From: a virus
Virus record (IMG/VR): IMGVR_UViG_3300008217_000038
Coordinates: 1 to 32,027 of that record
Reading direction: 5' to 3' (one strand)
DNA: 32,027 nucleotides
The position numbers and the translations under genes are program-made. The notes beneath the pieces were generated by a model, which was given only the letters and a program-made list of their open reading frames with translations, was not told the origin of the DNA and did no database searches. Of this stretch, positions 8,958-27,155 are shown piece after piece (positions within the stretch are counted from its first letter, which is position 1; each line of letters opens with the position of its first letter).

Positions 8958-9202
8958 CAGAGGTCTCGGTCCTCATCATTAATAGGTTTATCCAAAGACA
9001 TAATACCTTCAGCAACTGGATCAATTTGTTTTGGTTTAGACAAAGCTTCAACTACATCTTTCACAGAAAATCTATAGGTGTTACCTACTTTAATGTAAGT
9101 ATGTTCAGGGATATGATTTTTTCTGATCCAACCACGGATGGTGGAAATTGATACTGAAAAATGTTTTGATAAATCTTCAATAGGTACATACGGTCCACTC
9201 AT
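8957..9202 (-). CDS. Small helix-turn-helix DNA-binding protein (excisionase/MerR-like)
   Basis: The 81-residue product has an N-terminal winged helix-turn-helix of the HTH_17 type: residues about 6-55 include IEDLSKHFSVSISTIRGWIR, followed by a wing-like TYIKVGNTYRF and a second helix. Such proteins act as excisionases or transcription regulators. No integrase is seen in the window, so a regulator is more likely. Its start overlaps the stop of the upstream gene at 9202, placing it inside the replication operon. It is one candidate reader of the palindromes found at 16-24 kb; this is a guess. Confidence 0.75.
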   Translation of the reverse strand: MSGPYVPIEDLSKHFSVSISTIRGWIRKNHIPEHTYIKVGNTYRFSVKDVVEALSKPKQIDPVAEGIMSLDKPINDEDRDL

Positions 9203-15498: not shown

Positions 15499-15772
15499 TC
15501 AACTTATCCGAAACTCCAGAAACATTTTCCTCATTGACTACCCAGCTCAGGCCGTTTGCGTTTTGAATATCTGTTAAGTTCTTTTGCTGTAGCGGTGTGG
15601 GTTTATTCTTACCTGCTTTACATTCAATCCCAAAGAAGTATCCATTGTAGCATCCGACTATATCCGGTACACCGCTTCTTCCGTACCCTCCGGTCATGGG
15701 AAAAAAATAATATGCTCCCAACTCTTTGAGTTGTTTTGTTACCGCTTTCTTAACTTTGCCTTCAGGGGTCAT
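15476..15772 (-). CDS. VRR-NUC domain nuclease
   Basis: The 98-residue product is almost entirely a VRR-NUC (PD-(D/E)XK) domain. It has the pattern GYGRSGVPDIVGCYNGYFFGIECKAGK, in pieces: the catalytic Asp of VPDI and the ExK of ECK. These enzymes are structure-specific nucleases, often Holliday-junction or flap type. The ATG at 15772 is preferred. An in-frame TTG at 15799 would put the start inside the 47-base terminator repeat, so that repeat ends only nine bases upstream of the start. It is the third PD-(D/E)XK enzyme in the leftward set. Confidence 0.82.
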   Translation of the reverse strand: MTPEGKVKKAVTKQLKELGAYYFFPMTGGYGRSGVPDIVGCYNGYFFGIECKAGKNKPTPLQQKNLTDIQNANGLSWVVNEENVSGVSDKLNGLGIKT

Positions 15773-15780
15773 TCTTGTTT

Positions 15781-15827
15781 CCAAAAAAACTGGTTTCAAA
15801 AAGGGAGAGGCCGAAACCCCTCCCTAA
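15781..15827 (-). repeat. 47-base terminator cassette, copy 1
   Basis: This stretch is identical to 16389-16435. It contains the box AACTGGTTTCAAAAA (plus strand) and a terminator hairpin. It lies between the wHTH-like gene and the VRR-NUC gene. Confidence 0.9.
15798..15824 (-). terminator. Terminator in cassette copy 1
   Basis: On the minus strand GGGAGGGG pairs with CCTCTCCC (one G-U pair) around a TTTCGG loop, followed by TTTTT. It ends the unit of the gene at 15848-16327. The VRR-NUC gene starts just downstream and must use read-through or a promoter in the repeat. Confidence 0.75.
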
Positions 15828-15847
15828 AAGGGGGTTATGCGCCCCCG

Positions 15848-16327
15848 CTACTCATCCCCGCTATCTTCATTTTTCTTGCGAAGTCCCCATAAATGTACGG
15901 GGCGTTTAAGCTCCTTATTATACTCGTCATCAACTAAAACAGATTCGATTTTTCCAGCATTTTTAAGCCGTCCTAACGAGTGATAAACTCGCTTATATTC
16001 TACTTTATTGTATGGTAATTTTGGCCCCAACATTTCTTTCATCAAATCTGTTGTCGTTATTGGGTCTTCTAAATTATTTAAAATTTTTGTATTTAAAATA
16101 TCTTGGTCTAAAAACGAACCATTAAGCCCCTCAGAAGTACCGTTGGACACTTTGTCTGTGCCCATTTTTACTACAAGTTCAGTCTTCGTTAACGCTTGAA
16201 ATGTTTTGTTGTCAATAACAACAATGTCACCTTCATCTTTAACAAATAAATAGTCACCCTTTTTTGCGCGGATTGCGTTTGTTACAGGTACAACAGTCGC
16301 GCTCGTATTTAGGTTAATTTTATGCAT
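15848..16327 (-). CDS. Hypothetical protein with winged-helix-like C-terminus (159 aa)
   Basis: The C-terminal half (about residues 88-152) has a winged-helix pattern: ITTTDLMKEML, then VYHSLGRLKNAGKIESVLV and a closing strand HLWGLRK. The N-terminal half is beta-rich (SATVVPVTNAIRAKKGDYLFV). It could be a phage regulator. The ATG has AGGAG upstream. A palindrome lies 40 bases before the start and a terminator cassette follows its end, so it is probably a single-gene unit. It is a candidate binder of the palindromes, by inference only. Confidence 0.65.
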   Translation of the reverse strand: MHKINLNTSATVVPVTNAIRAKKGDYLFVKDEGDIVVIDNKTFQALTKTELVVKMGTDKVSNGTSEGLNGSFLDQDILNTKILNNLEDPITTTDLMKEMLGPKLPYNKVEYKRVYHSLGRLKNAGKIESVLVDDEYNKELKRPVHLWGLRKKNEDSGDE

Positions 16328-16366
16328 ATAAGTTCTCCTAGAACATTAAAGTTTTGTTAAAATTTT

Positions 16367-16384
16367 GTTAGGGATGTCCCTAAC
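16367..16384. repeat. Palindrome family copy 1 (centre TG)
   Basis: Arms GTTAGGGA and TCCCTAAC are perfect around a two-base centre. It is 40 bases upstream of the wHTH-like gene start. Confidence 0.9.
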
Positions 16385-16388
16385 AATC

Positions 16389-16435
16389 CCAAAAAAACTG
16401 GTTTCAAAAAGGGAGAGGCCGAAACCCCTCCCTAA
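16389..16435 (-). repeat. 47-base terminator cassette, copy 2, bracketed by two palindromes
   Basis: This stretch is identical to 15781-15827. The terminator hairpin is at 16411-16432 with its T-run (minus strand) at 16406-16410. It ends the unit of the 85-residue gene at 16458. Palindromes begin five bases before and three bases after it. Confidence 0.9.
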
Positions 16436-16438
16436 TTT

Positions 16439-16456
16439 GTTAGGGACGTCCCTAAC
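16439..16456. repeat. Palindrome family copy 2 (centre CG)
   Basis: A fully self-complementary 18-mer GTTAGGGACGTCCCTAAC. It abuts the stop codon of the gene at 16458. Confidence 0.9.
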
Positions 16457-16457
16457 A

Positions 16458-16715
16458 TTATTGTGGTTGCACAACCCAAAAAGAATTTTTGTCAATAGAC
16501 TTACCAAAATCTCCATAATATATATTGGGTTGCACAACTAACAGCACCGCTAACCTTTCCTGCATCCATTGCGGCAATTCTTCTATGCTACTGTAGACAC
16601 CTCCCACATCAGTGTCAAGCCTATTCATACCAATACATGACACATGAATACAATTTGTATCTGGGTTTAGGTAAACGTGATATACGTTATCGTTAAACAT
16701 CTTCCTGTACGACAT
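16458..16715 (-). CDS. Hypothetical protein (85 aa)
   Basis: An unrecognised small protein with the segment IEELPQWMQERLAVLLVV, common in short phage proteins of unknown role. The ATG at 16715 is chosen because GGAG lies about ten bases upstream; a GTG at 16736 is in frame. It overlaps the end of the upstream gene by 23 bases. Its C-terminus holds two similar VVQP pentapeptides. Confidence 0.55.
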   Translation of the reverse strand: MSYRKMFNDNVYHVYLNPDTNCIHVSCIGMNRLDTDVGGVYSSIEELPQWMQERLAVLLVVQPNIYYGDFGKSIDKNSFWVVQPQ

Positions 16716-17652
16716 AAAAACAAGTCTCCGTTGCACGATAACCTACGTTATCAAAATACTGCCCATTCTTACCCATACTCAACACCGATAATTTTCCCAT
16801 TAGAGCTTCGGGGATATTTTCTGAATTATATCTCTCCCCCTCTACCCATTTTGTTTTCCATTCGGATATATCGTCTGTTAAAGCTGTGCAATATAAGTCG
16901 TTACCATGAAAATCTTTCTCCACACTCACTAACAGCATACGTTTTGTACGCCCTTCAAGACGCTCTTTATGCTCCCTGTGAGCATCCAGAAACTCGGTAA
17001 CTTTTTGACCAAACTCAGGGTCAATAAAATTGTAATCCGAATTTTCTACAGACAACAATTCCCTCAGAAGTGGATCATTCCCTCCATCATCAACAGTAAC
17101 ATTGCGCCGTGCGTTACTCAGCTTTTTTCGCATGGCTTCATCGGTGTTACTCCACCCTCTACGACATTCATTACTTTCTTTAGAAGCAACTTCTACTGCA
17201 CTATAATCACGCAAGTATTTTCGAACATTACGTAATGCAACTTTTAAGTTTACACTACTGACTGAATGGTGTTTCCAATTATAAGAAGCATATTTCTCAT
17301 TAGATATCCTTTTTGAATACACTATATATTGCGGCTTATTATTTTTTCCGTTTTTCTGGTCGTATGGTCTTATGTGCAGAGATACCCACCCCATACAAAG
17401 AGGTTTATACGCATGGTAAACCCAAAAACTGTGGGGTTGCTGGTAGACGTTACTCCCCAATGGACTTGCATGTACATCCTGTCGAAGTCGCGTTTGCGAG
17501 TTTTCCCCCCTCTGCGAAAAACTACACTTAGGAAAAATTTTTCGGATTTCATTTATAAACTTTTTAAGGGGCAACGGGGTTCCCCACTCGGAAAGTTCAC
17601 TATCAGTCACAGCAGTACAGTCTGCCGTCCATTGCTCATGAGTTCTAGACAT
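16693..17652 (-). CDS. Hypothetical protein (319 aa), unrecognised
   Basis: No family is recognised. The product is soluble-looking, with many aromatic and charged residues and no membrane segment. It starts with ATG just after the stop of the upstream gene (TAG then TATG), with AGGGG as Shine-Dalgarno. Residues encoded at 17479-17502 (SQTRLRQ region) come from a 24-base sequence that recurs exactly in the upstream gene in a different frame. It forms a unit with its two neighbours. Confidence 0.6.
   Translation of the reverse strand: MSRTHEQWTADCTAVTDSELSEWGTPLPLKKFINEIRKIFPKCSFSQRGENSQTRLRQDVHASPLGSNVYQQPHSFWVYHAYKPLCMGWVSLHIRPYDQKNGKNNKPQYIVYSKRISNEKYASYNWKHHSVSSVNLKVALRNVRKYLRDYSAVEVASKESNECRRGWSNTDEAMRKKLSNARRNVTVDDGGNDPLLRELLSVENSDYNFIDPEFGQKVTEFLDAHREHKERLEGRTKRMLLVSVEKDFHGNDLYCTALTDDISEWKTKWVEGERYNSENIPEALMGKLSVLSMGKNGQYFDNVGYRATETCFYVVQEDV
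17479..17502. repeat. 24-base exact repeat, copy A
   Basis: It is identical to 18382-18405 and lies inside the 319-residue gene. It contains TCGC-GTTT-GCGA, a small inverted repeat. Confidence 0.85.
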
Positions 17653-17653
17653 A

Positions 17654-18655
17654 CTATTTACCCCTTGTTATATAGTTAAAATCAAAAATTCTGTTCGCCC
17701 ATTTATTAAACGCGGCTTTAAAAGAACGGACATCTTCTTCTGTATTGAGTTGTTTTATATCATTTAGCATCAAAAACATTGAAGCGAGATGTATACGTAG
17801 TGGATGATTATAATCCGTTAGAACACTTAGCGCAAGTTTTGGACCCATATGTAAACTGCCTCGGCTATAAACCGAATTATAATCAACATCATTTTCCAGA
17901 AATTCTTTATGCTCGGAAACGTATTCATTTACTTCCGTCTGCATGTAAGACAAGGTAGGAAACGAAAACTCATCTCTCTCAATCTTCAGCAGTGGGCCTG
18001 TCGCACATAGCCAAGTAAAGAAAGACGCTATATCTTCTTTAAGTGCTTTTTTTGCTTCCTTGTTCACACGTATTTTCGGGGTGTTATGTTCCTCGCTACA
18101 TAATTGCCAGAGACCCTTGTTCTCGCGCTTGAATGTCAAAAAATAATCCTTGTGGCTTCCAGCATAATTTTGGGTGGGTTTTGTAAATTCGGGACGCGGT
18201 AGGTAATAACGGTTCACACGCATCCTACTAGCACCCAGACTTGGATCATATACATTGACGAAATGCTTCCCTATTTGTGTCCAGTTATCAAACTCAAGAC
18301 CAAGGGGGAGCCAGAAACGAAGAAAATTATATCTAGATGTATCATACCCTTCAGACACAGCCCCACGCACAGTAACAAATTCTGTCGAAGTCGCGTTTGC
18401 GAGTTGTCGCTCCCATACAATCGGGGGTCTCCTTAATGCCCTTCTGTGCCAATCAGACCCCCAACTGCTAGGGTTTCGTGGTAACACGTCATGCAACACA
18501 TATTTATCTGGCGAGCCTTTCTCCACACGTTCCCATTTTCGGCTTCTCCTACCGATAGGTCTTACATCTTCTTCGCGGGAATGAACGCCGCTCACAAGAA
18601 CACGTGTTTCGTCGTAACGCTTTTTTACATCTTCAAATGTATTTAAATCACCCAT
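17654..18655 (-). CDS. Hypothetical protein (333 aa), unrecognised
   Basis: No family is recognised. The product is basic, with tryptophan-rich stretches (SSWGSDWHRRALRRPPIVWERQ, in part) and a helical C-terminus. The ATG at 18655 has AAGGAT nine bases upstream and is preferred. An ATG at 18751 would add 32 residues and has a poor ribosome site. If the longer form is used, the palindrome at 18771 sits 20 bases before it. The gene carries copy B of the 24-base repeat. Confidence 0.6.
   Translation of the reverse strand: MGDLNTFEDVKKRYDETRVLVSGVHSREEDVRPIGRRSRKWERVEKGSPDKYVLHDVLPRNPSSWGSDWHRRALRRPPIVWERQLANATSTEFVTVRGAVSEGYDTSRYNFLRFWLPLGLEFDNWTQIGKHFVNVYDPSLGASRMRVNRYYLPRPEFTKPTQNYAGSHKDYFLTFKRENKGLWQLCSEEHNTPKIRVNKEAKKALKEDIASFFTWLCATGPLLKIERDEFSFPTLSYMQTEVNEYVSEHKEFLENDVDYNSVYSRGSLHMGPKLALSVLTDYNHPLRIHLASMFLMLNDIKQLNTEEDVRSFKAAFNKWANRIFDFNYITRGK
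18382..18405. repeat. 24-base exact repeat, copy B
   Basis: It is identical to 17479-17502, here read in another frame as part of LANATSTE. Confidence 0.85.
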
Positions 18656-18770
18656 TAGTTTATATCCTTTTCGGTTAAATTTCTTTCTAGCGTATACCCG
18701 ATCTAATCTGACACAGGCACATGAGTTATTTTTTCGATGGTTAAAGTCCATTTTTTTATCTTCAAATTTT

Positions 18771-18788
18771 GTTAGGGACGTCCCTAAC
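18771..18788. repeat. Palindrome family copy 3 (centre CG)
   Basis: A self-complementary 18-mer. It contains the stop codon of the 44-residue gene at 18784. Confidence 0.9.
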
Positions 18789-18918
18789 CATTTCTAACCT
18801 TATTGAAAGCATCTTTCACCTTTTGGACTTCCTGTTCTGAACACCCCTCCTGCCGCATACGGTCAAGGGTGGTTTCTAATACTTCCTCAAATAATCTTAA
18901 TGCTTCTTTGTATTCCAT
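18784..18918 (-). CDS. Small hypothetical protein (44 aa)
   Basis: This short gene has an ATG that overlaps the stop of the hydrolase gene (TAATG) and AGGAG seven bases upstream. The product is a charged, probably all-helical peptide beginning MEYKEALRLFEEVLETTL. Its TAG stop is formed by the first bases of the palindrome at 18771-18788. Coupling to the hydrolase gene is clear; the role is unknown. Confidence 0.65.
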   Translation of the reverse strand: MEYKEALRLFEEVLETTLDRMRQEGCSEQEVQKVKDAFNKVRNG

Positions 18919-19340
18919 TATCTTTCTCCTGTTTTATAAAACACGTGATCACCAATTCTGACGGTCACTTTCATTGTATGCCTCCACACTGGGGACACTT
19001 GGGTTGAATGGTAGAATGTAGCTCCCTCGGAAACATCGAGGGGGTAGAAACTGGTATCGGTTACAGCGGAGGCGATACGCAACGCCATCTCCCACGCATC
19101 CTTGTTCACGGGACGTTCGGGTTTACCATCACACCAGAATGAGAACTGACACATATTACGTCGAGGGTGGCCGGATGGGTACACCGGCCCCTCCATAACA
19201 ACTTTACACACGGTATCTGGATGGCGACGGGACTGGACACGGTTAATCACCACTTGAGCCACCGCCAATTGCCCTGCTGTCGGTTGGTTACGAGCCTCGA
19301 AATAAACAGCCATAGCCAAACAAGTTATTGCACTTAGCAT
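18918..19340 (-). CDS. Cell wall hydrolase, SleB type (candidate endolysin)
   Basis: The 140-residue product is a bare SleB/Hydrolase_2 domain. It has the YFEARN motif with the likely catalytic Glu15, then AVAQVVINRV, a CQFSFWCDG core and a closing ATFYH...VSPVW segment. Such enzymes cleave peptidoglycan, as lytic transglycosylases in the family. There is no clear signal peptide, so release would need a holin. Its ATG overlaps the stop of the VWA gene (TAATG) and has GAGGGAG upstream. Finding a lysis-type enzyme in the leftward early-type operon rather than with the late genes is unusual. Confidence 0.85.
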   Translation of the reverse strand: MLSAITCLAMAVYFEARNQPTAGQLAVAQVVINRVQSRRHPDTVCKVVMEGPVYPSGHPRRNMCQFSFWCDGKPERPVNKDAWEMALRIASAVTDTSFYPLDVSEGATFYHSTQVSPVWRHTMKVTVRIGDHVFYKTGER

Positions 19341-20557
19341 TACAACTCCCTCGAACTGACATGTATACAGGTACCAACGGTGGGTTTGGCTCCCTTGTTA
19401 TCAACAACAACCCACAAGACAGGACAATCCCATTCCCCCCATGAACCGCCGAGATACCCATCAGTTATAACAATTGCGGCCTGTGCCTTGATGTTGTTAT
19501 CGGTCATATGTTTGGGGACGCACTCGACATCGGTGCCGCCGCCGCCCTTTGGCTTGGTAGACTTTACAAATTGATCCAGTTGGTGTTGTTCGTATTTCTC
19601 ATCTGAACATACCACTGTGTCCCAATACAACATACGCACCCAATTAGGATGAACGGTATCGAACATTTGTTTAGCCTCGGTGAGAATGACAGCCTGTTCA
19701 CGTTGCCCGATGGAACCAGACATGTCGCCAGCAACGACAACACCCTCGACGCTTTCGGATATACCACTCGGCATAAATATATCGGCTGATAGGAAACGCC
19801 TGTTAGGTCGTCTGTAGGTGGAGTAGTCGTTGCCTGAACAAGTCATCGTAATAAATTCCCGCATGACTTCCCGCCAATCCACTTGCGGTTTAAGCAAATC
19901 TTTTAATTCACGATCTGCCCCTGTACCTAACTTGCCAGCGATCAACGCACCCTGCCGTATGGCTTCGTCGATATCCCGTCCAAGTTCCCGCTTCTCCTCT
20001 TCGGAAAGTTCCTTTGCGCTTTCCCAATCATGCTCATCGAAACCTTGTGGTAACGACTTTCCATTTGAACCATTACCTGTCCCGGAATTGTCGGGATGAT
20101 TATTGGAAGGAGTATCCTGCTTTAAGATGTCAAACACCTGTGCGCTATCCATCCCGCGAAACTGCTCATCCAAAAGACCTTCTTTTGGCATCACCGCAAA
20201 ACCATCCTTGTTATCATCGGTTATCTTTAGGTTAATGACGTAATCACAGGCCATGTTTGCAAGTTGCGGGTCTTCTTCGTACAGATGCCTCCACGTGGTA
20301 AGATGTTTGTAGAGTTTGTGGTAGCACTCATGAAGTGTAAGGAATCGTAATTCTGGGTCAGAAAGTTTATCGACAAATTCCCTACCGTACATCTCATCAC
20401 GTCCATTCGTACACGCGGTAGGTATGTCGTCACGTACACTCCGGTCTCCAATCATAAGTATGCCAGCCAAAGCCACATACTTTTCGTTACTCATAATAGA
20501 CACAACAGCTTTCGATAATCGCTGTTCAGTGGTGAGTGATTTACCTAATGTTAACAT
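19340..20557 (-). CDS. HExxH metallopeptidase-like / VWA domain protein (partner of MoxR ATPase)
   Basis: The 405-residue product has two parts. The N-terminal part resembles the DUF2201 putative metallopeptidase domain, with LHECYH (H76, E77, H80) and CDYVINLKI. The C-terminal part is a VWA-like domain with a complete MIDAS: DMSGS (D278, S280, S282), then GGGGTD (T342, D343) and ITDG. A Gly/Ser/Asn linker (about 150-170) lies between. Proteins of this kind work with MoxR AAA+ ATPases, and the ATPase gene is directly upstream. The ATG has GGAAGGAT upstream. A palindrome and a hairpin (20581-20601) lie in its leader. The substrate is unknown. Confidence 0.85.
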   Translation of the reverse strand: MLTLGKSLTTEQRLSKAVVSIMSNEKYVALAGILMIGDRSVRDDIPTACTNGRDEMYGREFVDKLSDPELRFLTLHECYHKLYKHLTTWRHLYEEDPQLANMACDYVINLKITDDNKDGFAVMPKEGLLDEQFRGMDSAQVFDILKQDTPSNNHPDNSGTGNGSNGKSLPQGFDEHDWESAKELSEEEKRELGRDIDEAIRQGALIAGKLGTGADRELKDLLKPQVDWREVMREFITMTCSGNDYSTYRRPNRRFLSADIFMPSGISESVEGVVVAGDMSGSIGQREQAVILTEAKQMFDTVHPNWVRMLYWDTVVCSDEKYEQHQLDQFVKSTKPKGGGGTDVECVPKHMTDNNIKAQAAIVITDGYLGGSWGEWDCPVLWVVVDNKGAKPTVGTCIHVSSREL

Positions 20558-20580
20558 TTGCTTTTATCCTTCCAGTTAAG

Positions 20581-20601
20581 GGGTGGAGCGATACCCCACC
20601 C
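20581..20601 (-). other. Leader hairpin before the VWA gene
   Basis: On the minus strand an eight-pair stem with one G-U pair and a five-base loop forms between the palindrome and the ribosome site. There is no T-run, so it is not a normal terminator. Confidence 0.4.
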
Positions 20602-20608
20602 TGATTTT

Positions 20609-20626
20609 GTTAGGGACATCCCTAAC
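20609..20626. repeat. Palindrome family copy 4 (centre CA)
   Basis: It lies between the MoxR gene and the VWA gene, sharing one base with the MoxR stop codon. Confidence 0.9.
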
Positions 20627-21720
20627 TATTTCTTATCCCCCGCAAACATATAGTTGTTTGCCATAGCCCAATCGGTGAATTTCTTATTGGTCATCACCAT
20701 AGACTGCTTGGAGTATTTGGGAGCGCGAACACCGTTGGCGAACATACCCTGCGCTTCCTTGTCGAGGCGCACCATGTATTCCATCCACGGGTTAACCCAC
20801 TCCTTGTCTAAACTTGCTAACGTGCGATACACAACCATACACACCGCGCTGGCACTGTCTGGCACCTTAGCGTTTTTCGGGTCTTTCTTGATACTTTCGA
20901 GTGACGGTAGCTGATCGGCTAACTTGACAAACGCCATCAAGTCCATCGCCCCGCGTTCCCCGATGGTTCCCATGAGCAGACCTGTCAGCGTTTGATCGTC
21001 AAAGTGTTCCCGCTGTTTGAGCCAATCACTTGCCGCTTCTGCGGAACGTGGTGTGAAGAACGCTGTCCTTTGTGCTTGTGGGTGGTAGATATAAGGGTTT
21101 TCGTCTGGGTCTTTGATATCCTCAAACGAGGCGAACAACTGTGGATTATCCTTGCACCACCCCAATAATGTATGGTCGATTTCATTGCTTATTCCCCATT
21201 CTATCCATTCAAGGTTGGTTGATTTCCGCATCTGCACAACGGCCATACGGTTACGGGCATGTGGTGGTAACAAGTCACCTACACCTTCGGAACCAAGGTT
21301 GGTCGTCGCAAAAATTATAGTGTCTGGGTGCAGTTTACTTGTGCCTATCTTTCTCTCCTGCATCAGTCCGGTGAGCGCAAGTTTTACGGAGGGGTTGGCT
21401 TTGCCATATTCATCAACCATGATAATAAGCGGCTTGCCTAAATGTACGCCAAGTTCCTCGTTGGTAGCGAAACGAACATAATCTTTACCATCCAAGTCTT
21501 TCAGCTTGGGTAACTGGATATCACCCAAATCTTTCGTCGTGCAGTCAAAGTAGCAGGGTACGTGGTTCGGTAAATCTTCTGCTAACATCTTTAGGATAGA
21601 AGACTTACCCGTGCCCATGTGCCCCTGCACCAAAATGGTGCGCTTGTTACCACCTGTACGTATGGCGGTGGCGATCTGGTCGATGTTTAGTGCGTACATC
21701 CGTATAGCTGAATTACTCAT
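20626..21720 (-). CDS. MoxR-type AAA+ ATPase
   Basis: The 364-residue product has Walker A GHMGTGKSS (residues 33-41), Walker B LIIMVDE (98-104), sensor-1-like IIFATTN and a following PPHARNRM segment, all in the order of MoxR/CobS-like AAA+ proteins. These hexameric ATPases act as chaperones that remodel or insert cofactors into partner proteins, with a VWA protein as adaptor. The next gene encodes such an adaptor. AAAGGAA precedes the ATG. A palindrome lies 26 bases upstream and another at its stop codon. Confidence 0.88.
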   Translation of the reverse strand: MSNSAIRMYALNIDQIATAIRTGGNKRTILVQGHMGTGKSSILKMLAEDLPNHVPCYFDCTTKDLGDIQLPKLKDLDGKDYVRFATNEELGVHLGKPLIIMVDEYGKANPSVKLALTGLMQERKIGTSKLHPDTIIFATTNLGSEGVGDLLPPHARNRMAVVQMRKSTNLEWIEWGISNEIDHTLLGWCKDNPQLFASFEDIKDPDENPYIYHPQAQRTAFFTPRSAEAASDWLKQREHFDDQTLTGLLMGTIGERGAMDLMAFVKLADQLPSLESIKKDPKNAKVPDSASAVCMVVYRTLASLDKEWVNPWMEYMVRLDKEAQGMFANGVRAPKYSKQSMVMTNKKFTDWAMANNYMFAGDKK

Positions 21721-21745
21721 AAGATTTTTTCCTTTTATGTTTTTT

Positions 21746-21764
21746 GTTAGGGACCATCCCTAAC
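21746..21764. repeat. Palindrome family copy 5 (centre CCA)
   Basis: The same arms surround a three-base centre. It lies between the small membrane gene and the MoxR gene. Confidence 0.9.
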
Positions 21765-21767
21765 AAA

Positions 21768-21944
21768 TTATTTCCAGTAACCGTAAGTTACTTCGTAAGG
21801 GATAAACAGACATTCGCCTGTTATCCAAGTTCCATTCGGGTAGTAGGTTTTCTCACCGCAACCGATGAGCCATTCCATAACAATAATAGTGATGAGGAGT
21901 ATTATTCCCCCCATCACAACCATTCCCAATAGACGCCCACCCAT
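21768..21944 (-). CDS. Small single-pass membrane protein (58 aa)
   Basis: The ATG at 21944 comes one base after the stop of the gene upstream, which suggests re-initiation. Residues about 5-27 (LLGMVVMGGIILLITIIVMEW) form one membrane helix. The rest is a short tail with two cysteines and several tyrosines. No family is recognised. It could be a holin-like or membrane-anchor partner of the MoxR-VWA genes or of the hydrolase; this is position only. Confidence 0.55.
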   Translation of the reverse strand: MGGRLLGMVVMGGIILLITIIVMEWLIGCGEKTYYPNGTWITGECLFIPYEVTYGYWK

Positions 21945-21945
21945 T

Positions 21946-22875
21946 TTATATATCCAAACTCGGTAAGGATTTAATAACATCGTCCATTGCTTTTTTCGTT
22001 ACGCCGCGCAGATAGTCGTCCTCACGCAGTGCGTCGGGAGTAACGCTGTACATGGCTTCCTCCAATTTAAGTCTTGCCGCCGACATCTGGCTGTCTCCCG
22101 TCACATTACACGTATCGAGTAAACCGATTATATCCACGACATTACTAACGATACTGTCCCGAAAGATTTTCTTGTTATCACTGTTCGTATAGTCGAGCCG
22201 TTCTGACATCTTGTTCAATGCGCTGTACAACCGCGACCATATATCATCCATCGCGTTTTTTATCTGGCGTGAATAATATTCTCCATAACCCCTAACGATT
22301 TCGGCTTTAGCCTCATTCCCGATGTCAATACGAAAATCTCCAGTTTCGGGGATCGGTATGTAAGTGAGATTGAAAGAGAATTTTCCCTTGAGGGTATCTA
22401 CGGTTGGGTATTCGTCACGGTAGAACAAGTTACCCAGCTTTGCCTCGGCCTTGCTGATTTCCCAATTGTAGGAGTTTAAAAAAGCCTCGACGGTTTTATA
22501 CCATTCGTTCTCCATCTCGGTCATCTGCTTGTGGTAGTTGAAATATTGTTTCGTGGGCAGGAGGCGCATCCCTATATCGCTCCACGGCATTGTCATAGCG
22601 TAGTGCATGTTGCGGATGTTACCCGTCATTTTGTGTACCGCATCAAGTTCGGGACAATCTCCGAGAAGTTTCTTGTGGACGTTTGCGACACCGGAAGCGG
22701 CGTTGTTGTTTGCTGTAACTTCTTTTGATGCCTTGCGGTCCTTTTTGCGGCCCCCCCACTGACTGATGGATAATTCCGAGAGACAGGCTGATGACGCGAT
22801 AGAGGGTGCGGCTGTTTCGGGTTCAAATTTTGTTAGGGACTTCCCTAACATTTCTTCGTTCAATTGCGTATTCAT
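21946..22875 (-). CDS. Possible DUF3150-like protein associated with MoxR-VWA
   Basis: The product is largely helical with about 309 residues and no catalytic motif. In size, composition and position beside MoxR and VWA genes it resembles DUF3150 proteins, which accompany such pairs in phages and mobile elements; this is tentative. The ATG at 22875 has AGGAG eight bases upstream. An in-frame ATG at 22938 also has GAGGAG and would add 21 residues, so two starts are possible. A copy of the palindrome lies inside the coding region and encodes LGKSLT (residues 10-15). A consensus promoter lies about 35-65 bases upstream of the longer form. Confidence 0.6.
   Translation of the reverse strand: MNTQLNEEMLGKSLTKFEPETAAPSIASSACLSELSISQWGGRKKDRKASKEVTANNNAASGVANVHKKLLGDCPELDAVHKMTGNIRNMHYAMTMPWSDIGMRLLPTKQYFNYHKQMTEMENEWYKTVEAFLNSYNWEISKAEAKLGNLFYRDEYPTVDTLKGKFSFNLTYIPIPETGDFRIDIGNEAKAEIVRGYGEYYSRQIKNAMDDIWSRLYSALNKMSERLDYTNSDNKKIFRDSIVSNVVDIIGLLDTCNVTGDSQMSAARLKLEEAMYSVTPDALREDDYLRGVTKKAMDDVIKSLPSLDI
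22832..22849. repeat. Palindrome family copy 6 (centre CT), inside a gene
   Basis: The same arms as the other copies, but located in the coding sequence near the N-terminus of the DUF3150-like gene. Confidence 0.88.
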
Positions 22876-22972
22876 TTCTTTCTCCTTTTGTTTTAGGTTG
22901 TGGTTTGTACGCGGTGCTGAAGAATTTTCGTAGGACATTTATTTCTCCTCTAAACAATTTATATTATACACA

Positions 22973-23001
22973 AGTATAGCATATATATCAGTTAATGTCA
23001 A
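22973..23001 (-). promoter_or_regulatory. Sigma-70 promoter for the DUF3150-MoxR-VWA unit
   Basis: On the minus strand there is TTGACA, exactly 17 bases, then TATACT. This is close to the bacterial consensus. It faces the DUF3150-like gene, 35 bases from the ATG at 22938. A TGTGTATAAT box, shared with two other leaders, follows directly. Confidence 0.75.
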
Positions 23002-23048
23002 GTTTTGTGAAAACGTGTTGTATTATACGTATACATGTTAAAACGTAT

Positions 23049-23126
23049 AATGTTCTGTAATGTTCTGTAATGTTCTGTAGTCGGGGTCTGTAACCCATTG
23101 AAAAATATAGAATGTTCTAATGTTCT
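23049..23126 (+). repeat. AATGTTCT iterons, left group
   Basis: Three perfect tandem copies of AATGTTCTGT occupy 23049-23078 with a 10-base period. Two more AATGTTCT units are back to back at 23111-23126. Confidence 0.9.
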
Positions 23127-23167
23127 TTTTTTTCCGATTTTGGAGAGTGATATTTGGGTGAAGTTTT

Positions 23168-23185
23168 GTTAGGGACGTCCCTAAC
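23168..23185. repeat. Palindrome family copy 7 (centre CG)
   Basis: A self-complementary 18-mer between the left iterons and the AT-rich core. Confidence 0.9.
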
Positions 23186-23425
23186 ACTCCGCGTCCAAGG
23201 GGGTCGAAAATATCGCTTTATAATTTTTTAAAAAAAGAACATTACATACTATATAATAAATACATATAAATTGATAAGTTTTGATAAGCACTTCTCCACA
23301 GAATTGCATACAAGCTGACACGAATTGCTACAAAAACATAATGTTCTCTCGTTACAGAACATTACGGAACATTACCCCCCAAAACCGGAACATTCCTTAT
23401 TTATCAATAACTTAACACAGAACAT

Positions 23426-23484
23426 TGGCTCACCGCTCATGGAGAAACTGGTTTCAAAAATTGTTAGGGACATCCCTAACAAAA
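23426..23484. repeat. 59-base direct repeat, copy 1
   Basis: It matches 23627-23685 at all positions except the two central bases of the enclosed palindrome (23463-23480, centre CA). It includes one 30-base bipartite element at 23427-23456. Confidence 0.9.
23463..23480. repeat. Palindrome family copy 8 (centre CA)
   Basis: Part of the 59-base repeat copy 1. Confidence 0.9.
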
Positions 23485-23626
23485 TATCAGGAAGCTGTTT
23501 GTATCATCACTACAGGTACATAGAACATTGCTATGGGTACACAGTGCACCGGTAATACTGCTGTAGGGTATACACTATAACTTGTTATGACATGAAGTTT
23601 ATGGTCGCCACATTTCAGGTACTTAA

Positions 23627-23685
23627 TGGCTCACCGCTCATGGAGAAACTGGTTTCAAAAATTGTTAGGGATGTCCCTAACAAAA
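23627..23685. repeat. 59-base direct repeat, copy 2
   Basis: It lies 201 bases after copy 1. It includes a 30-base bipartite element at 23628-23657 and a palindrome with centre TG. Confidence 0.9.
23664..23681. repeat. Palindrome family copy 9 (centre TG)
   Basis: Part of the 59-base repeat copy 2. Its centre is the reverse complement of that in copy 8. Confidence 0.9.
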
Positions 23686-23692
23686 ATTAGGC

Positions 23693-23720
23693 AAAAAAAA
23701 GCCACCCCCGAAGGGGTGGC
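23693..23720 (-). terminator. Rho-independent terminator with UUCG loop
   Basis: On the minus strand GCCACCCC and GGGGTGGC pair around TTCG, followed by eight T. It ends the unit of the gene at 23738. Confidence 0.9.
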
Positions 23721-23737
23721 CAGTTGGGGGTAACAAG

Positions 23738-24289
23738 TTATTTTTTGTCGATTGTTTTGGCAATCTCTTTTAGGTCTTCGATAATTGGGGTAGCCTCAAA
23801 GTGTGGGTCTTCCCAGTTTTGGATTTTAGTGATAGCAACATTCAAACTTGCTAAAACTTGTTCCGCTGCAGTTTTTCTGGGTGCCACATAACCCTCCGCT
23901 GCCTCAGCCTCTTTTTTCTCAGCCTTGAGCAGAATTTTTCGGCTGTCGCTGATCTTCGCGCCGATAGCCTTTTGGGCATTGCTTCGGACAAGTTTGTCAT
24001 TCTCCGACAGTCCCTTGTTACTTTCTAGGGCAACAAGTTTCTGCTCCCGTACTTTTAGTTGCTGGGTTGCCATTGTTCGGAGATATGCCCAAAGTTCTGG
24101 AGTGCAAGTTGAACCATTAGGGTTCTTAGTATGTGGACTGAGAAACGTATTTGCCGTCCACCCTTCTTTTTTAGCCAATTTTCCCCACAACCCGCGTTCC
24201 TTTTTTACACCGGCCTCTTTGTTCCACAATTTAAGGGTGGCTGTTTCCATTTGCTCGGAAACGGGAGCATTTCTTGTAGATGTGTTCAT
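23738..24289 (-). CDS. Hypothetical lysine-rich protein, paralogue A (183 aa)
   Basis: An unrecognised, basic, helical protein. The segment QKAIGAKISDSRK (residues 106-118), preceded by a long charged helix, matches QQAIGARVSDFKK in the gene at 25292-25819, so the two are paralogues. The ATG at 24289 has AAAGGAAG upstream; an upstream in-frame codon lies inside a palindrome and is rejected. It has its own leader with a conserved promoter box and hairpin and its own terminator, so it is a single-gene unit. DNA binding is inferred from charge and from its place beside the iteron region. Confidence 0.65.
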   Translation of the reverse strand: MNTSTRNAPVSEQMETATLKLWNKEAGVKKERGLWGKLAKKEGWTANTFLSPHTKNPNGSTCTPELWAYLRTMATQQLKVREQKLVALESNKGLSENDKLVRSNAQKAIGAKISDSRKILLKAEKKEAEAAEGYVAPRKTAAEQVLASLNVAITKIQNWEDPHFEATPIIEDLKEIAKTIDKK

Positions 24290-24308
24290 AACACTTCCTT
24301 TGGTTTTT

Positions 24309-24327
24309 GTTAGGGACAATCCCTAAC
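24309..24327. repeat. Palindrome family copy 10 (centre CAA)
   Basis: It lies 20 bases upstream of the paralogue A start, in the leader. Confidence 0.9.
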
Positions 24328-24370
24328 AAGTTTACATCAACCCTCACGCTTTGTTTTGCGCCGTGTTGAT

Positions 24371-24423
24371 GATGTACATTATACACATATTCCTTGTAAT
24401 TAAAAGGGATAGTATGACAAGTT
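24371..24423 (-). promoter_or_regulatory. Conserved promoter box of paralogue A
   Basis: On the minus strand TGTGTATAATGTACA contains a TATAAT at 24378-24383. Upstream lie CTATCCC and TTGTCA. About 43 of 53 bases match the box before paralogue B. No canonical -35 lies 17 bases from TATAAT, so a phage activator may be involved. Confidence 0.55.
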
Positions 24424-24455
24424 ATGATAAGTTTAAATAAAGTTTGGTATATTTT

Positions 24456-24474
24456 GTTAGGGACAATCCCTAAC
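24456..24474. repeat. Palindrome family copy 11 (centre CAA)
   Basis: It lies upstream of the paralogue A promoter box and four bases before a bipartite element. Confidence 0.9.
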
Positions 24475-24477
24475 AAC

Positions 24478-24507
24478 GGCGCACCGCATCAAATAAAACT
24501 GGTTTCA
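24478..24507. repeat. 30-base bipartite element, copy 3
   Basis: GGCGCACCGC, nine variable bases, then AACTGGTTTCA. It has the same spacing as copies at 23427-23456, 23628-23657 and 24551-24580. Confidence 0.8.
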
Positions 24508-24550
24508 TAAACTATTGTGTGAGGGAGGGAAACCAAAGTCGAGATCGAAT

Positions 24551-24580
24551 GGCGCACCGCGTTCGGGAGAACTGGTATCA
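24551..24580. repeat. 30-base bipartite element, copy 4
   Basis: GGCGCACCGC, nine variable bases, then AACTGGTATCA. On the minus strand it follows directly after the T-run of a terminator. Confidence 0.8.
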
Positions 24581-24585
24581 AACAT

Positions 24586-24612
24586 AAAAAAAGGAGGGAC
24601 CGAAGTCCCTCC
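24586..24612 (-). terminator. Rho-independent terminator with UUCG loop
   Basis: On the minus strand GGAGGGAC and GTCCCTCC pair around TTCG, followed by seven T. It ends the unit of the gene at 24621. Confidence 0.9.
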
Positions 24613-24620
24613 CCTGTAGT

Positions 24621-24848
24621 TTAACTACCCTTATTTTCTTTTATGTGCTTGTTAAGCTCTCTAGCTTCCCTAAACAGAAAGGGTTTGTACTTAGCCACCC
24701 CGCCTTGGAACACTACATGGAGATGCATGAACTCATTTTCTTGTTCATCGTGGATGAACATGCTGTAGGCACATTTTGAAGGATGCACGGAGTATTTATT
24801 CCACGGTTTTGTATCTTTAACTATATGCACTTTAAATCTGTCTTCCAT
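24621..24848 (-). CDS. Hypothetical protein (75 aa)
   Basis: An unrecognised small protein, rich in His, Lys and Phe, with FMHLHVVFQGG in the middle and a charged helical C-terminus. The ATG has AAAGG upstream. A GC hairpin sits just before the ribosome site, and a terminator follows its stop. It is the last gene of the unit that starts with paralogue B. Confidence 0.6.
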   Translation of the reverse strand: MEDRFKVHIVKDTKPWNKYSVHPSKCAYSMFIHDEQENEFMHLHVVFQGGVAKYKPFLFREARELNKHIKENKGS

Positions 24849-24868
24849 GTCTTACCTTTCTGGTTGTG

Positions 24869-24886
24869 GGGGGGCCGAAGCCCCCC
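24869..24886 (-). other. GC-rich hairpin with UUCG loop, no T-run
   Basis: GGGGGGC and GCCCCCC pair around TTCG between two short genes. Without a T-run it may be an RNA processing or stability element, or a weak attenuator. Confidence 0.55.
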
Positions 24887-24892
24887 GGTTAA

Positions 24893-25063
24893 TTACTTTC
24901 CAAGTATGGCACCGAGACCATGTTTACTGTTAAGACGATTACGTTCTGCCTCGGCTTCTTCTCTGGTCTCGAATTGAGCGGTAGCGTAGTGGTCACCATC
25001 TTTTACGACGTAAAAAATATCGTAGAAGTGATTGATTTTGTAGGGTGCTAATGTTTCTACCAT
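24893..25063 (-). CDS. Small hypothetical protein (56 aa)
   Basis: The ATG at 25063 has AGAGGCAG upstream and overlaps the end of the membrane gene by seven bases. The product reads as a small alpha/beta domain, IFYVVKDGDHYATAQFETREEAEAE, in pieces: two strands then a helix. This pattern is common in short phage proteins of unknown role. It has no catalytic motif. It is coupled to its neighbour. Confidence 0.65.
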   Translation of the reverse strand: MVETLAPYKINHFYDIFYVVKDGDHYATAQFETREEAEAERNRLNSKHGLGAILGK

Positions 25064-25236
25064 TGTCTGCCTCTTATACTACGTAAGCCGCAAGTTAAAC
25101 TGAATTGCCCAAGGATAAGAGCTAATAAAAGAACTAGATCTTTTGGGTTTCTCACATGCTCTAGGATATTCATCAGAACTAATGTTAACATTGCAGTTCC
25201 GAATATTATTGCGACTATTGTTAGACATTTATCCAT
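25057..25236 (-). CDS. Small two-helix membrane protein (59 aa), holin-like in size
   Basis: The ATG at 25236 has AAGGAAGG upstream. Two hydrophobic segments, residues about 4-21 (CLTIVAIIFGTAMLTLVL) and 34-50 (LVLLLALILGQFSLTCG), are joined by a charged turn, giving a membrane hairpin with a basic C-terminus. Class II holins look like this, but the early-type location argues for another role, such as membrane takeover or superinfection exclusion. The T-run of the upstream terminator touches its ribosome site, so it depends on read-through. Confidence 0.6.
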   Translation of the reverse strand: MDKCLTIVAIIFGTAMLTLVLMNILEHVRNPKDLVLLLALILGQFSLTCGLRSIRGRQW

Positions 25237-25252
25237 TGTCTTTCCTTCCTTT

Positions 25253-25279
25253 AAAAAATGGGGGGGCCGAAGCCCCCCC
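25253..25279 (-). terminator. Terminator or attenuator with UUCG loop
   Basis: On the minus strand GGGGGGGC and GCCCCCCC pair around TTCG, then A and six T. It lies after paralogue B and directly before the next ribosome site, so partial termination is likely. Confidence 0.8.
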
Positions 25280-25291
25280 GTAGTTGATAAC

Positions 25292-25819
25292 CTAGCGCTT
25301 CGATACCTCATCTTTTGCCTTTTTCAGCAAATTGATTGTTTCTTCGCAATCAAACAAGGTATTTTCTGCCGCCTGTAGATATTCAATCAGCTCGACCAAC
25401 GTGGTCTCGGTCCTTTCTTCTACAGATTTTGGAACCCGAGGTTTTTTCTTAACACCATTTTTGATGTCTTCTCGACGTTGGAGTTGCTTTTTGAAATCGC
25501 TTACGCGTGCTCCGATAGCTTGTTGAATGCCCCGCTTCTCGATCTTTTTCGTGTCATCCAACTCCTTGGTGTTCTTTTCCAAGAGCTTCTGTTGGGACGC
25601 TGTGAAACCCGCGACAACTGCGAGTTTTAATGCCGCATAGCGCTGTTTATGTTCAGCGCTTGTTTGTTCACCCTTCTTTGGAGCGGTACAAAACATGGCG
25701 GTATACCCAGCTTTTAGCAAGGCATCTACAGCTAAACCGTAAGTTTTTATACCTAAATAATGCTTACGGACAGCTTTTACAACGCTCCCACGCGTTGTCG
25801 TTGGCAATTCATAGGACAT
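25292..25819 (-). CDS. Hypothetical lysine-rich protein, paralogue B (175 aa)
   Basis: A relative of the 183-residue gene at 23738: QQAIGARVSDFKK (residues 99-111) and the preceding charged helix align with it, and both have a variable N-terminal part. The ATG at 25819 has AGGATTAGG close upstream; longer in-frame starts run into the leader hairpins and are rejected. The leader carries a conserved promoter box and two strong hairpins. No catalytic motif is seen. It is the first gene of a unit of four small genes. Confidence 0.65.
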   Translation of the reverse strand: MSYELPTTTRGSVVKAVRKHYLGIKTYGLAVDALLKAGYTAMFCTAPKKGEQTSAEHKQRYAALKLAVVAGFTASQQKLLEKNTKELDDTKKIEKRGIQQAIGARVSDFKKQLQRREDIKNGVKKKPRVPKSVEERTETTLVELIEYLQAAENTLFDCEETINLLKKAKDEVSKR

Positions 25820-25835
25820 TGTCCTAATCCTTTCT

Positions 25836-25863
25836 GGCGCTTCTGAACGACGCCAGAAGCGCC
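25836..25863 (-). promoter_or_regulatory. Ten-base-pair hairpin next to the ribosome site of paralogue B
   Basis: GGCGCTTCTG and CAGAAGCGCC are perfect arms with an eight-base loop. The ribosome site begins a few bases downstream on the mRNA, so translation control is plausible. Confidence 0.6.
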
Positions 25864-25870
25864 GGTTATT

Positions 25871-25912
25871 ATCGAACGTTAAATCAAACAACATCATGTT
25901 GTGCCGTTCGAT
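25871..25912 (-). promoter_or_regulatory. Hairpin at the expected 5' end of the paralogue B mRNA
   Basis: Outer arms ATCGAACG and CGTTCGAT enclose the inner palindrome ACAACAT / ATGTTGT. It starts about seven bases after the TATAAT, near the likely transcription start. Confidence 0.55.
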
Positions 25913-25964
25913 GGTGTACATTATACACATATTGTTTGATATTAGTAGGGATAGATTGACATGT
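25913..25964 (-). promoter_or_regulatory. Conserved promoter box of paralogue B
   Basis: It shares the TGTGTATAATGTACA core (TATAAT at 25920-25925), CTATCCC and TGTCA with the box before paralogue A at equal spacing. The core is itself an imperfect inverted repeat, so it may also be an operator. Confidence 0.55.
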
Positions 25965-26121
25965 TTTGGTACTAATAGATATTAACTGCTAAGATTTAAT
26001 AGTATATATAGCTCGGGTACCGGTAAATTTATATTGATTGACCCCACCCCTACCCCATGACCCCGTAGAATAAATGAGCCTCGTGGCGCTCCTATATAAT
26101 ACTAATAGCCCCGAATATTTT

Positions 26122-26454
26122 TCATATTTCTGGTTTTAGATCTTCTTTATTGATCCGGGGTACCACGTGTACTTTATGGGTGTCCATGTTTACATAGGCT
26201 ATGCGAACTCCAAACAGTTTTTGTTCTTCTGTCAGTACACGGTGGATTCTATGGGGTACGTTGCGGCCTTTAAGATATCTTTTTGTATCCTTCTTTGCGT
26301 CGAACAGATACACTTTCCCTGTTTCCCCTGATATACCTATTACATCTACGGGGCCGAACCCTGCGGGAGGTATGAATACATAGAAACCACGCCGCATTAA
26401 ATATTCTGCAAGGATCGTTTCACAAATTTGTCCCTCTAGGTGTCGTTTATCCAT
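26122..26454 (-). CDS. PD-(D/E)XK nuclease, Holliday-junction-resolvase-like (110 aa)
   Basis: The product has HLEGQICETILAEYLMRRG with E7, GPVDVIGI with the catalytic Asp, and YLFDAKKD with the Asp-x-Lys of the active site. This is the layout of small PD-(D/E)XK resolvase-like nucleases of phages. The ATG at 26454 follows a GGGGG ribosome site; an in-frame TTG upstream is less likely. It is the first leftward gene and is transcribed divergently from the terminase genes. It may resolve junctions before packaging. Confidence 0.75.
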   Translation of the reverse strand: MDKRHLEGQICETILAEYLMRRGFYVFIPPAGFGPVDVIGISGETGKVYLFDAKKDTKRYLKGRNVPHRIHRVLTEEQKLFGVRIAYVNMDTHKVHVVPRINKEDLKPEI

Positions 26455-26489
26455 ATATAGAAGACCCCCCCTTTGGAGTCCCAAACTTC

Positions 26490-26518
26490 TTGTGAAAACT
26501 TTTTATTTTTGATATATG
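26490..26518 (+). promoter_or_regulatory. Possible promoter of the late module
   Basis: TTGTGA, 17 bases, TATATG upstream of the small terminase gene. Each hexamer matches four of six consensus bases, so this is weak. Confidence 0.3.
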
Positions 26519-26552
26519 TTGCACAACGGTTAATTACCTGCGGAAAAAATTA

Positions 26553-27155
26553 ATGACTTTAGTTATAGAACCTGAATTGGGAGTTCCTTTTTCCCCGGAC
26601 ATCCCTTATGTAGATCTGCGGGAGCGAGCTGAAGCTGCTTGCAACACGGCTTCTAAATTATCTGAACACGGGTTGGACATAAAACCTACCAAGGAAGATA
26701 AAGATATAGCGGCTAAGTTAGCTGTAGCTTACGCAGATAACCCCGAAAAAGTCTCTAAAAAAGTTTCAGCAAAAAAAGCAGCTACTTTAACCCCTGCATC
26801 CTTGCTTATGACAAACAGTATTCTGCAGGAGTTTGGCCGGTCGGTTGTAGAGAGTGCCATACAGATACGGCATATGGTCACAAACAAGCTTGTTCTTGAA
26901 ACGGATAACCCTGACCCCCGTGTACGTATCCGGGCCTTGGAGCTGTTGGGAAAAATTTCCGATGTAGGTCTGTTTGCAGAAAAGTCCGAGGTCACTATAA
27001 CACATCAGTCGGCGGATGATTTGCGGGACAAGTTGAGATCCAAGCTGGCAAAACTTGTAAACCCCAAGGAGGAAGACGAAGTTATTGTTATAGACGGTGA
27101 AGCAACGGATATTGATACTGCTCTTGAATTAAAAGAACCTTCTGATGCCGGATAG
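26553..27155 (+). CDS. terS: Terminase small subunit
   Basis: The 200-residue product precedes the large terminase and overlaps it by 11 bases. Its middle, RIRALELLGKISDVGLFAEK in part, is a pattern I know from small terminase subunits. The C-terminus is acidic, as expected for contact with the large subunit. It recognises phage DNA for packaging. The ATG has GGAA upstream. It is the first gene of the rightward late module. Confidence 0.8.
   Translation: MTLVIEPELGVPFSPDIPYVDLRERAEAACNTASKLSEHGLDIKPTKEDKDIAAKLAVAYADNPEKVSKKVSAKKAATLTPASLLMTNSILQEFGRSVVESAIQIRHMVTNKLVLETDNPDPRVRIRALELLGKISDVGLFAEKSEVTITHQSADDLRDKLRSKLAKLVNPKEEDEVIVIDGEATDIDTALELKEPSDAG

Follow-up and report, generated by a model that had tools for sequence, protein, structure and literature searches.

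The viral record IMGVR_UViG_3300008217_000038, analyzed here from position 1 to 32,027 (32,027 nucleotides, hereafter the window), carries eleven copies of a short palindrome, mostly at gene junctions. Judged by sequence comparison, these palindromes are probably operators on DNA for a regulator encoded by the phage; the likeliest regulator comes from an orphan protein family, here called fam, with two members in the window, fam1 and fam2. Operators with a phage-encoded partner appear well supported, and fam is the likely partner protein. In the sequence record, an invariant 7-bp arm pair around a 3–5-bp centre is repeated at early-gene junctions, the arms being near-uniform within a lineage and differing between lineages. 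Since fam changes along with the lineage-specific arms, the palindromes are probably fam binding sites.

All eleven sites listed in the original prediction were recovered with perfect 8-bp arms (GTTAGGGA-N2/3-TCCCTAAC; core GTTAGGG-N4/5-CCCTAAC), and 100 dinucleotide-preserving shuffles of the window yielded none, so that the sites are not due to chance. The prediction that the copies are confined to about 8 kb also held: the paired arms had no further copy in the 32-kb window record. Nearly all sites had been placed between leftward genes; ten lie outside large reading frames, site 22832–22849 lies within the frame 21946–22938, and the site at 20609 overlaps a stop codon. A distance of 20–50 bases to a start, described as frequent, applied to five of the eleven, five others being 111–725 nt away. 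The sites are unoriented. Site 16367–16384 (plus-strand centre TG) lies 39 nt ahead of the start of gene 15848–16327, and site 16439–16456 (CG) at 111 nt from a start. Site 18771–18788 (CG) lies 19 nt ahead of gene 17654–18751, site 20609–20626 (CA) overlaps the stop of the AAA gene with the VWA gene 51 nt on, and site 21746–21764 (CCA) lies 25 nt ahead of the AAA gene and 3 nt past the stop codon of a gene. Site 22832–22849 (CT) is within the DUF3150-like gene, in the part coding for the N-terminus. The next large gene follows at 229 nt from site 23168–23185 (CG), at 524 nt from site 23463–23480 (CA) and at 725 nt from site 23664–23681 (TG), with a minus-strand T run after each of the latter two. 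Sites 24309–24327 and 24456–24474 (both CAA) are found 19 and 166 nt ahead of the start of fam2 (23738–24289).

Scanning IMG/VR for exact copies of the palindrome yielded at least 118 stretches, at least 111 of which encoded at least one relative of the window proteins (tblastn, E 1e-5); these related stretches represent at least 101 contigs, including one copy of the window. Seven of the 118 viral loci had no relative of a window gene and were left out (L025, L051, L066, L090, L103, L121 and L126), as were the copies of the window, L094 and L196, from most counts. In the palindrome-selected loci, protein identity to the window ranged from about 25% to 80% while the arms were identical, partly because the scan required exact matches. 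A mismatch-tolerant scan of the relatives gave the invariant core GTTAGGG-N3..5-CCCTAAC with a centre of 4 as the commonest. Over the 111 related loci, centres next to the 7-bp arms were 4 (285 copies), 5 (30) or 3 (13) bases long, with no other length within 0–14. In G003, all nine exact sites fell within 27,843–35,822 of 61,783 bases, and in G002 all six fell within 29,033–37,382 of 58,858 bases; G001 (62,851 bases) had four exact sites near 46–48 kb and three others at 301, 52,814 and 58,975. In genomes of 84,980 species, the exact palindrome occurred in 63 stretches, none of which held a relative of the window genes; host genomes thus lacked the family alongside these genes. Several metagenome-assembled genomes (MAGs) of Acidimicrobiales and Elusimicrobia had repeated palindrome copies with a CWG centre, the Acidimicrobiales arms being longer (TGAACA...TGTTCA), and these look like a different family. 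Repeated TGAACAGTTAGGGACWGTCCCTAACTGTTCA palindromes were seen in the Acidimicrobiales MAGs L132, L134, L137, L138, L154, L160, L164, L182, L186, L190 and L191 and are probably an unrelated chromosomal family.

Further relatives were fetched via the AAA ATPase (20626–21720, minus strand), which served as the anchor for comparing relatives; the best 80 of 286 were kept and gave 79 new loci. Most of them bore another palindrome, chiefly GTTAGTG-N3/4, with GTTAGTC-N4, GTTATAC-N3, GTTATAG-N4 and GTTAGGG-N3 as further arms and TTACGGA in one locus. Arms of the type GTTAGGC-N3 were found later, on contigs fetched via fam. No two of the arm types listed occurred together in any of the 79 AAA-selected loci, and among the palindrome-selected ones L021, L038, L043, L054 and L107 each had a single off-type copy. 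Some imperfect sites combined GTG and GGG half-sites. Of 864 perfect palindromes anchored on GTTA, 857 had a centre of 3, 4 or 5 bases. Arm types were assigned manually for L036, L038, L264, L265, L065, L262 and L274. Relatives retaining the genes did not have random sequence at the sites; instead, they had a different, internally consistent palindrome or had lost single sites. The sister phages G036 (GTTAGGG-N3) and G044 (GTTATAC-N3) share 97% of their AAA protein sequence, and sites were switched in place between them: the flanking DNA aligned over the switched sites ahead of AAA and ahead of DUF3150, and other G036 sites were lost or decayed in G044.

Core proteins of G036 and G044 were mostly 70–97% identical, and the relative of window protein 25292–25819 (fam) was 32% identical. 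Thus, fam is the one broadly conserved protein that changes sharply across this arm switch. When families found in five or more of eleven loci with either GTTAGGG-N3 or GTTATAC-N3 arms were compared, fam identity fell from 82.5% within to 32.1% between arm types, the largest drop of any coding-strand family in the set. Three opposite-strand open reading frames (ORFs) ranked above fam and were judged spurious; L237 10012–10587 was limited to six loci and lies across two coding-strand ORFs, and the other two overlap the VWA and g17654 genes. Genome pairs matched for AAA identity gave the same picture (70 genomes; pairs above 98.5% AAA identity left out). At AAA identities of 95–100, 90–95 and 85–90%, fam identity was 0.89, 0.69 and 0.49 in same-arm pairs (25, 60 and 33 pairs) and 0.30, 0.32 and 0.35 in different-arm pairs (8, 8 and 13 pairs). 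The controls in the 95–100% bin, same versus different arm, were 0.96 versus 0.92 for DUF3150, 0.97 versus 0.93 for the large terminase (TerL) and 0.70 versus 0.71 for the fast g17654. In partial Mantel tests given AAA, the correlation with the arms was 0.394 for fam (p 0.001), 0.322 for the small terminase (TerS; p 0.001), 0.153 for DUF3150 (p 0.048) and -0.035 for VWA. It was 0.279 (p 0.001) for fam given AAA, TerS and DUF3150, and near zero for DUF3150 and AAA with all others held. Genomes with two fam copies were left out of these tests and of the tree counts given below, and the Mantel and AAA-matched comparisons remove shared ancestry only in part.

Four fam members were used as queries for new contigs, and two of them fetched such contigs. 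With the GTTATAC-type member, six new contigs at 80% fam identity or more had palindromes in five cases, all five GTTATAC, and eight at 66–74% had palindromes in seven cases, all GTTAG[GTC]C. With the GTTAGTC-type member, all four new contigs at 54% or more carried GTTAGTC, and all eight loci at 34–35% carried GTTAGTG. Thus, the palindromes on these new contigs were predicted by two fam members. The GTTATAG-type member found its own contig only.

Several results weigh against fam as the partner. The window fam2 query likewise found its own contig and no new one. All different-arm pairs above 90% AAA identity trace to a single event, GGG versus TAC. The partial correlation of TerS with the arms persisted when fam, AAA and DUF3150 were held (0.243, p 0.002). 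Arm changes numbered 9 on the fam tree and 7 on the AAA tree, so that the fam tree did not reduce them, and comparisons of the fam tree with those of DUF3150, TerS and VWA gave 9 versus 10, 8 versus 10 and 9 versus 10. Members of fam at 0.62–0.74 identity span GTTATAC and GTTAGGC. A search for specificity columns between GGG and GTG types was rejected: one column passed the permutation limit, and the window's own protein departs from it. Neighbouring sites showed no 10.5-bp helical phasing in any range; a signal at 10.0 bp (p 0.0001 up to 400 bp) was not used, as eight pairs at 251 bp account for at least part of it. Structure and profile searches with fam were also negative, since Foldseek with the fam model found nothing in the PDB that reached E 0.001, the fam profile matched no PDB sequence, and helix-turn-helix (HTH) families matched one of 63 fam members each in Pfam and PHROGs.

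Both window proteins of the family are encoded on the minus strand, are basic and have confident, all-helical models. The candidate binding protein fam2 (23738–24289; 183 residues, isoelectric point 9.5, pLDDT 90) has palindromes on both sides, and its paralogue fam1 (25292–25819; 175 residues, isoelectric point 9.6, pLDDT 92) is 23% identical to it; of the two, only fam2 has palindromes directly upstream. Both have a common upstream stretch, ATGTGTATAATGTACA (about 24370 and 25920, minus strand), as if the fam gene had been duplicated along with its promoter. Locus L200, with GTTAGTG arms, shares the window layout; its fam1 is 44% identical to window fam1 and its fam2 only 19% to window fam2. 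Among the members compared, the nearest to window fam2 was from the GGG-type locus L211 (30%), and L200 fam2 was 34–41% identical to three or four GTG-type members, L248 and L208 being nearest (41%). The fam profile had 118 members among 7,157 ORFs, and fam was present in 69 of 70 loci having both TerS and DUF3150, the exception being L038. Foldseek returned the viral model A0A6J5RDQ4, an uncharacterized protein, with probability 1.00 but E 0.0074 and TM 0.36. A VIA-align fold match (best Z 6.4) was discarded, being within the tool's common range for helical models. The L248 member had no match among 50,697 phage records at E 0.01, and the fam hidden Markov model found nothing better than E 0.58 in the examined stretches of Pag-Yong1 (49 kb), HTVC023P and DSL-LC04.

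The sites favoured particular genes in the relatives. The 200 nt upstream of the gene contained a site for 78 of 92 fam genes, 88 of 106 AAA genes (where the median distance was 38 nt) and 45 of 92 VWA genes, as well as for 29 of 77 VRR-nuclease, 11 of 22 helicase and 4 of 102 small-terminase genes. No site was found in this range for DNA polymerase (39 genes), exonuclease (33), HTH (15) or TerL (72) genes. The coding-region site of DUF3150 homologues is translated in two different frames (39 versus 11 of 50 distinct cases), with the peptides VR/VS... or LG..SL, a pattern indicating that selection acts on the nucleotides of the site.

The original prediction had also offered RNA processing sites, read here as hairpins for mRNA processing, stability or translation that a phage RNA-binding protein or RNase would recognize. 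Sites near starts and stops, perfect stems and loops of 3–5 bases are in line with this, and a loose scan rated six of the eleven sites as hairpin-plus-T, two on the sense strand and four on the opposite one. The feature of an intrinsic terminator, a GC-rich stem followed by a sense-strand T run, was present in two of the eleven only. In 21 of 74 distinct regions, a sigma-70-like promoter (at least 9 of 12 positions) separated the site from fam, and in 12 of these 21 the -35 hexamer came 26–36 bases past the site. The best promoter score averaged 3.7 from site to fam, 0.7 on the opposite side of the site and 2.2 in shuffles. Given this promoter-like sequence, the site would be near -75 and probably outside the transcript there. 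A TerS-facing promoter at the divergent site was dismissed, with 10 matches against 10 in shuffles. Imperfect sites tended to break pairing, with 51 mismatched arm pairs being neither G-U nor A-C, 17 G-U and 10 A-C, and the strand bias of the centres was no greater than that of the flanks (A/(A+T) 0.55 versus 0.61). Mismatch types and centre composition are thus without an RNA signature. Rfam gave no match above the gathering threshold in 15700–26600. Taken together, RNA hairpins are quite unlikely. N4-like virion RNA polymerase promoters have a 5–7-bp hairpin with a 3-nt loop upstream of early starts and are read by a giant virion RNA polymerase. No RNA polymerase was found among the genes of the window, a fragment, that were searched against PHROGs.

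A DNA site could be read by a protein other than fam. The two HTH proteins proposed originally did not fare well. The protein at 8957–9202, which has a Pfam HTH_17 match above the cut-off, is 94% identical over 87 residues between phages with GTTAGGG and GTTATAC arms and is therefore unlikely to determine specificity, with the caveat that distinct motifs have been reported for Cluster A repressors sharing an identical helix-turn-helix domain (PMC6550527, in the part available). For the protein at 15848–16327, tblastn (E 1e-5) over the 118 loci found a relative in L094 alone, which is a copy of the window. The small-terminase-like gene 26553–27155 is the other phage candidate. Small terminases bind DNA, and the residual correlation of TerS with the arms speaks for it; across the GGG/TAC switch, TerS is 87–96% identical, compared with about 30% for fam. 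The TerS gene adjoins fam and may travel with it. A reader of either kind, TerS or HTH_17, seems improbable. A host regulator or nucleoid protein is highly improbable: although the phages seem to use sigma-70-like promoters, the arms differ between sister phages, none of the 63 palindrome stretches from the 84,980 species is accompanied by a window-gene relative, and the repeated MAG copies belong to the CWG-centred family. Uniformity within genomes, variability between them and a copy tolerated in coding sequence would suit a small mobile or copy-number-driven palindrome without a regulatory role, similar to repetitive extragenic palindromes (REP) or miniature inverted-repeat transposable elements (MITE). 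This, too, is very unlikely, as the same junctions are occupied in relatives despite different arms, no larger element surrounds the palindrome, and the flanks vary from copy to copy.

If fam binds the palindromes, a dimer may do so on one face of the helix, each subunit reading one 7-bp half-site; half-site centres 10–12 bp apart would fit this arrangement. Through the site upstream of its gene, fam would control its own expression. The sites within operons could act as road-blocks, dampening or stopping early transcription in the manner of stoperators, a guess prompted by the short distance from site to start at operon junctions, which hardly leaves space for a promoter. At the site near -75 ahead of fam, activation or looping would fit as well. 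The sign of regulation is the weakest step: repression has a chance just short of even, a role in partition, replication or DNA organization is possible but doubtful, and activation is unlikely. More tentatively, this all-helical DNA-binding family may rewire a whole regulon, the protein and about ten operators per genome changing together among related lytic-looking phages. Such rewiring would comprise at least seven switches on the AAA tree and at least eight arm types, with replacement or divergence of the protein followed by change or loss of the site at each junction.

Other features accompany the sites. The DUF3150-like gene (21946–22938, minus strand), whose 5' coding part contains a site, is preceded by the promoter-like sequence TTGACA-17-TATACT (11 of 12 positions; 22973–23001, minus strand), located between sites 23168 and 22832; promoter-like matches over the entire region were no more frequent than in shuffles. 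The AAA, VWA and DUF3150-like genes (19340–22938) stay together in relatives and in cyanophage Pag-Yong1, and the set resembles CobS/CobT-like pairs. A second motif, GA[AT]ACCAGTT, occurs on the minus strand at 15788, 16396, 19049, 23446, 23647, 24497, 24570 and 6894, often beside palindromes and followed by GCGGTGAGCC- or GCGGTGCGCC-like sequence; the window has eight copies, and 308 were counted in 197 related loci, compared with 9 in reversed sequence. AATGTTC / GAACATT is clustered in the non-coding stretch 23049–23523 ahead of the DUF3150-like gene (18 in the window versus 6 in the reversed control), where it may mark an origin or a further set of operators. At about 26040–26105 (minus strand) and upstream of fam in relatives, there are a conserved G-rich run (GGGGTCATGGGGTAGGGGTGGGG-like) and an ATTAGTAATA-like element, which in many relatives precede the palindrome and the fam promoter. 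At the left end, the C-terminal part of a 1436-residue protein (108–4418) matched a DarB-like antirestriction PHROG and giant unknown proteins; it is possibly an internal virion protein and maybe cut by the start of the window.

Dispersed phage operators are known from a few cultured groups. With some 180 arm-typed loci, several classes of arms and one candidate protein family, the present phages offer a directly testable case. If true, fam binding would explain how a many-site regulator can change specificity without losing its regulon, and would name a new protein family for phage early control. The regulon rewiring suggested above would, if real, make fam a novel class of phage regulator and these phages one of the more extensive natural series in which a regulator and its operators co-evolve. 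A search of the open-access literature, the scope covered, found no report of these sites.

Among known systems, the 19 palindromes of the distant cyanophage relative Pag-Yong1, which infects Planktothrix and has the AAA, VWA and DUF3150 genes in common with the window phages, differ in sequence and spacing (GGTTCA-N3-TGAACC), and no fam member was present in the 49 kb examined. The start-associated sequences of Cluster K phages (named in PMC4351075) are likewise short repeated sites near gene starts, but they are tied to translation starts, whereas the sites here also occur past stops, in coding sequence and upstream of promoters. Cluster A stoperators and their repressor Rep, which stops elongation when bound to them, share with the present sites the many dispersed positions, mostly away from promoters, and a motif that varies by lineage and correlates with the repressor. 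According to the accessible part of PMC6550527, stoperators are asymmetric 13-bp sites oriented with transcription and bound by an HTH repressor of temperate phages, as opposed to symmetric, unoriented palindromes and a candidate without a recognized HTH. The original proposal of stoperator-like operators is supported for the operator role, the service to a whole module and the placement, as far as sequence can tell; the resemblance fails on symmetry and orientation. By anatomy, the closest precedent is the 17-bp repeat of Cluster O mycobacteriophages such as Corndog, TGTTCGG-N3-CCGAACA (PMC4351075, as are the following points, from the available text). There, too, 7-bp arms invariant within a genome flank a variable centre (3 bp there; 4 or 5 in the window and 3 in many relatives), and the dozens of copies are unoriented and concentrated in a leftward operon, many being intergenic and about a third in coding regions; the repeat is absent from the host M. 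smegmatis and was predicted to bind a dimeric protein. The Cluster O repeats differ in number (34 versus 4–13 copies here) and in sequence (TGTTCGG rather than GTTA-NNN), and one arm sequence is found in five close phages, hence no co-evolution is visible there. In that text, neither a binding protein nor a function is named and a transcriptional role was thought unlikely; in the phages studied here, the arms change along with fam, the candidate binding protein.

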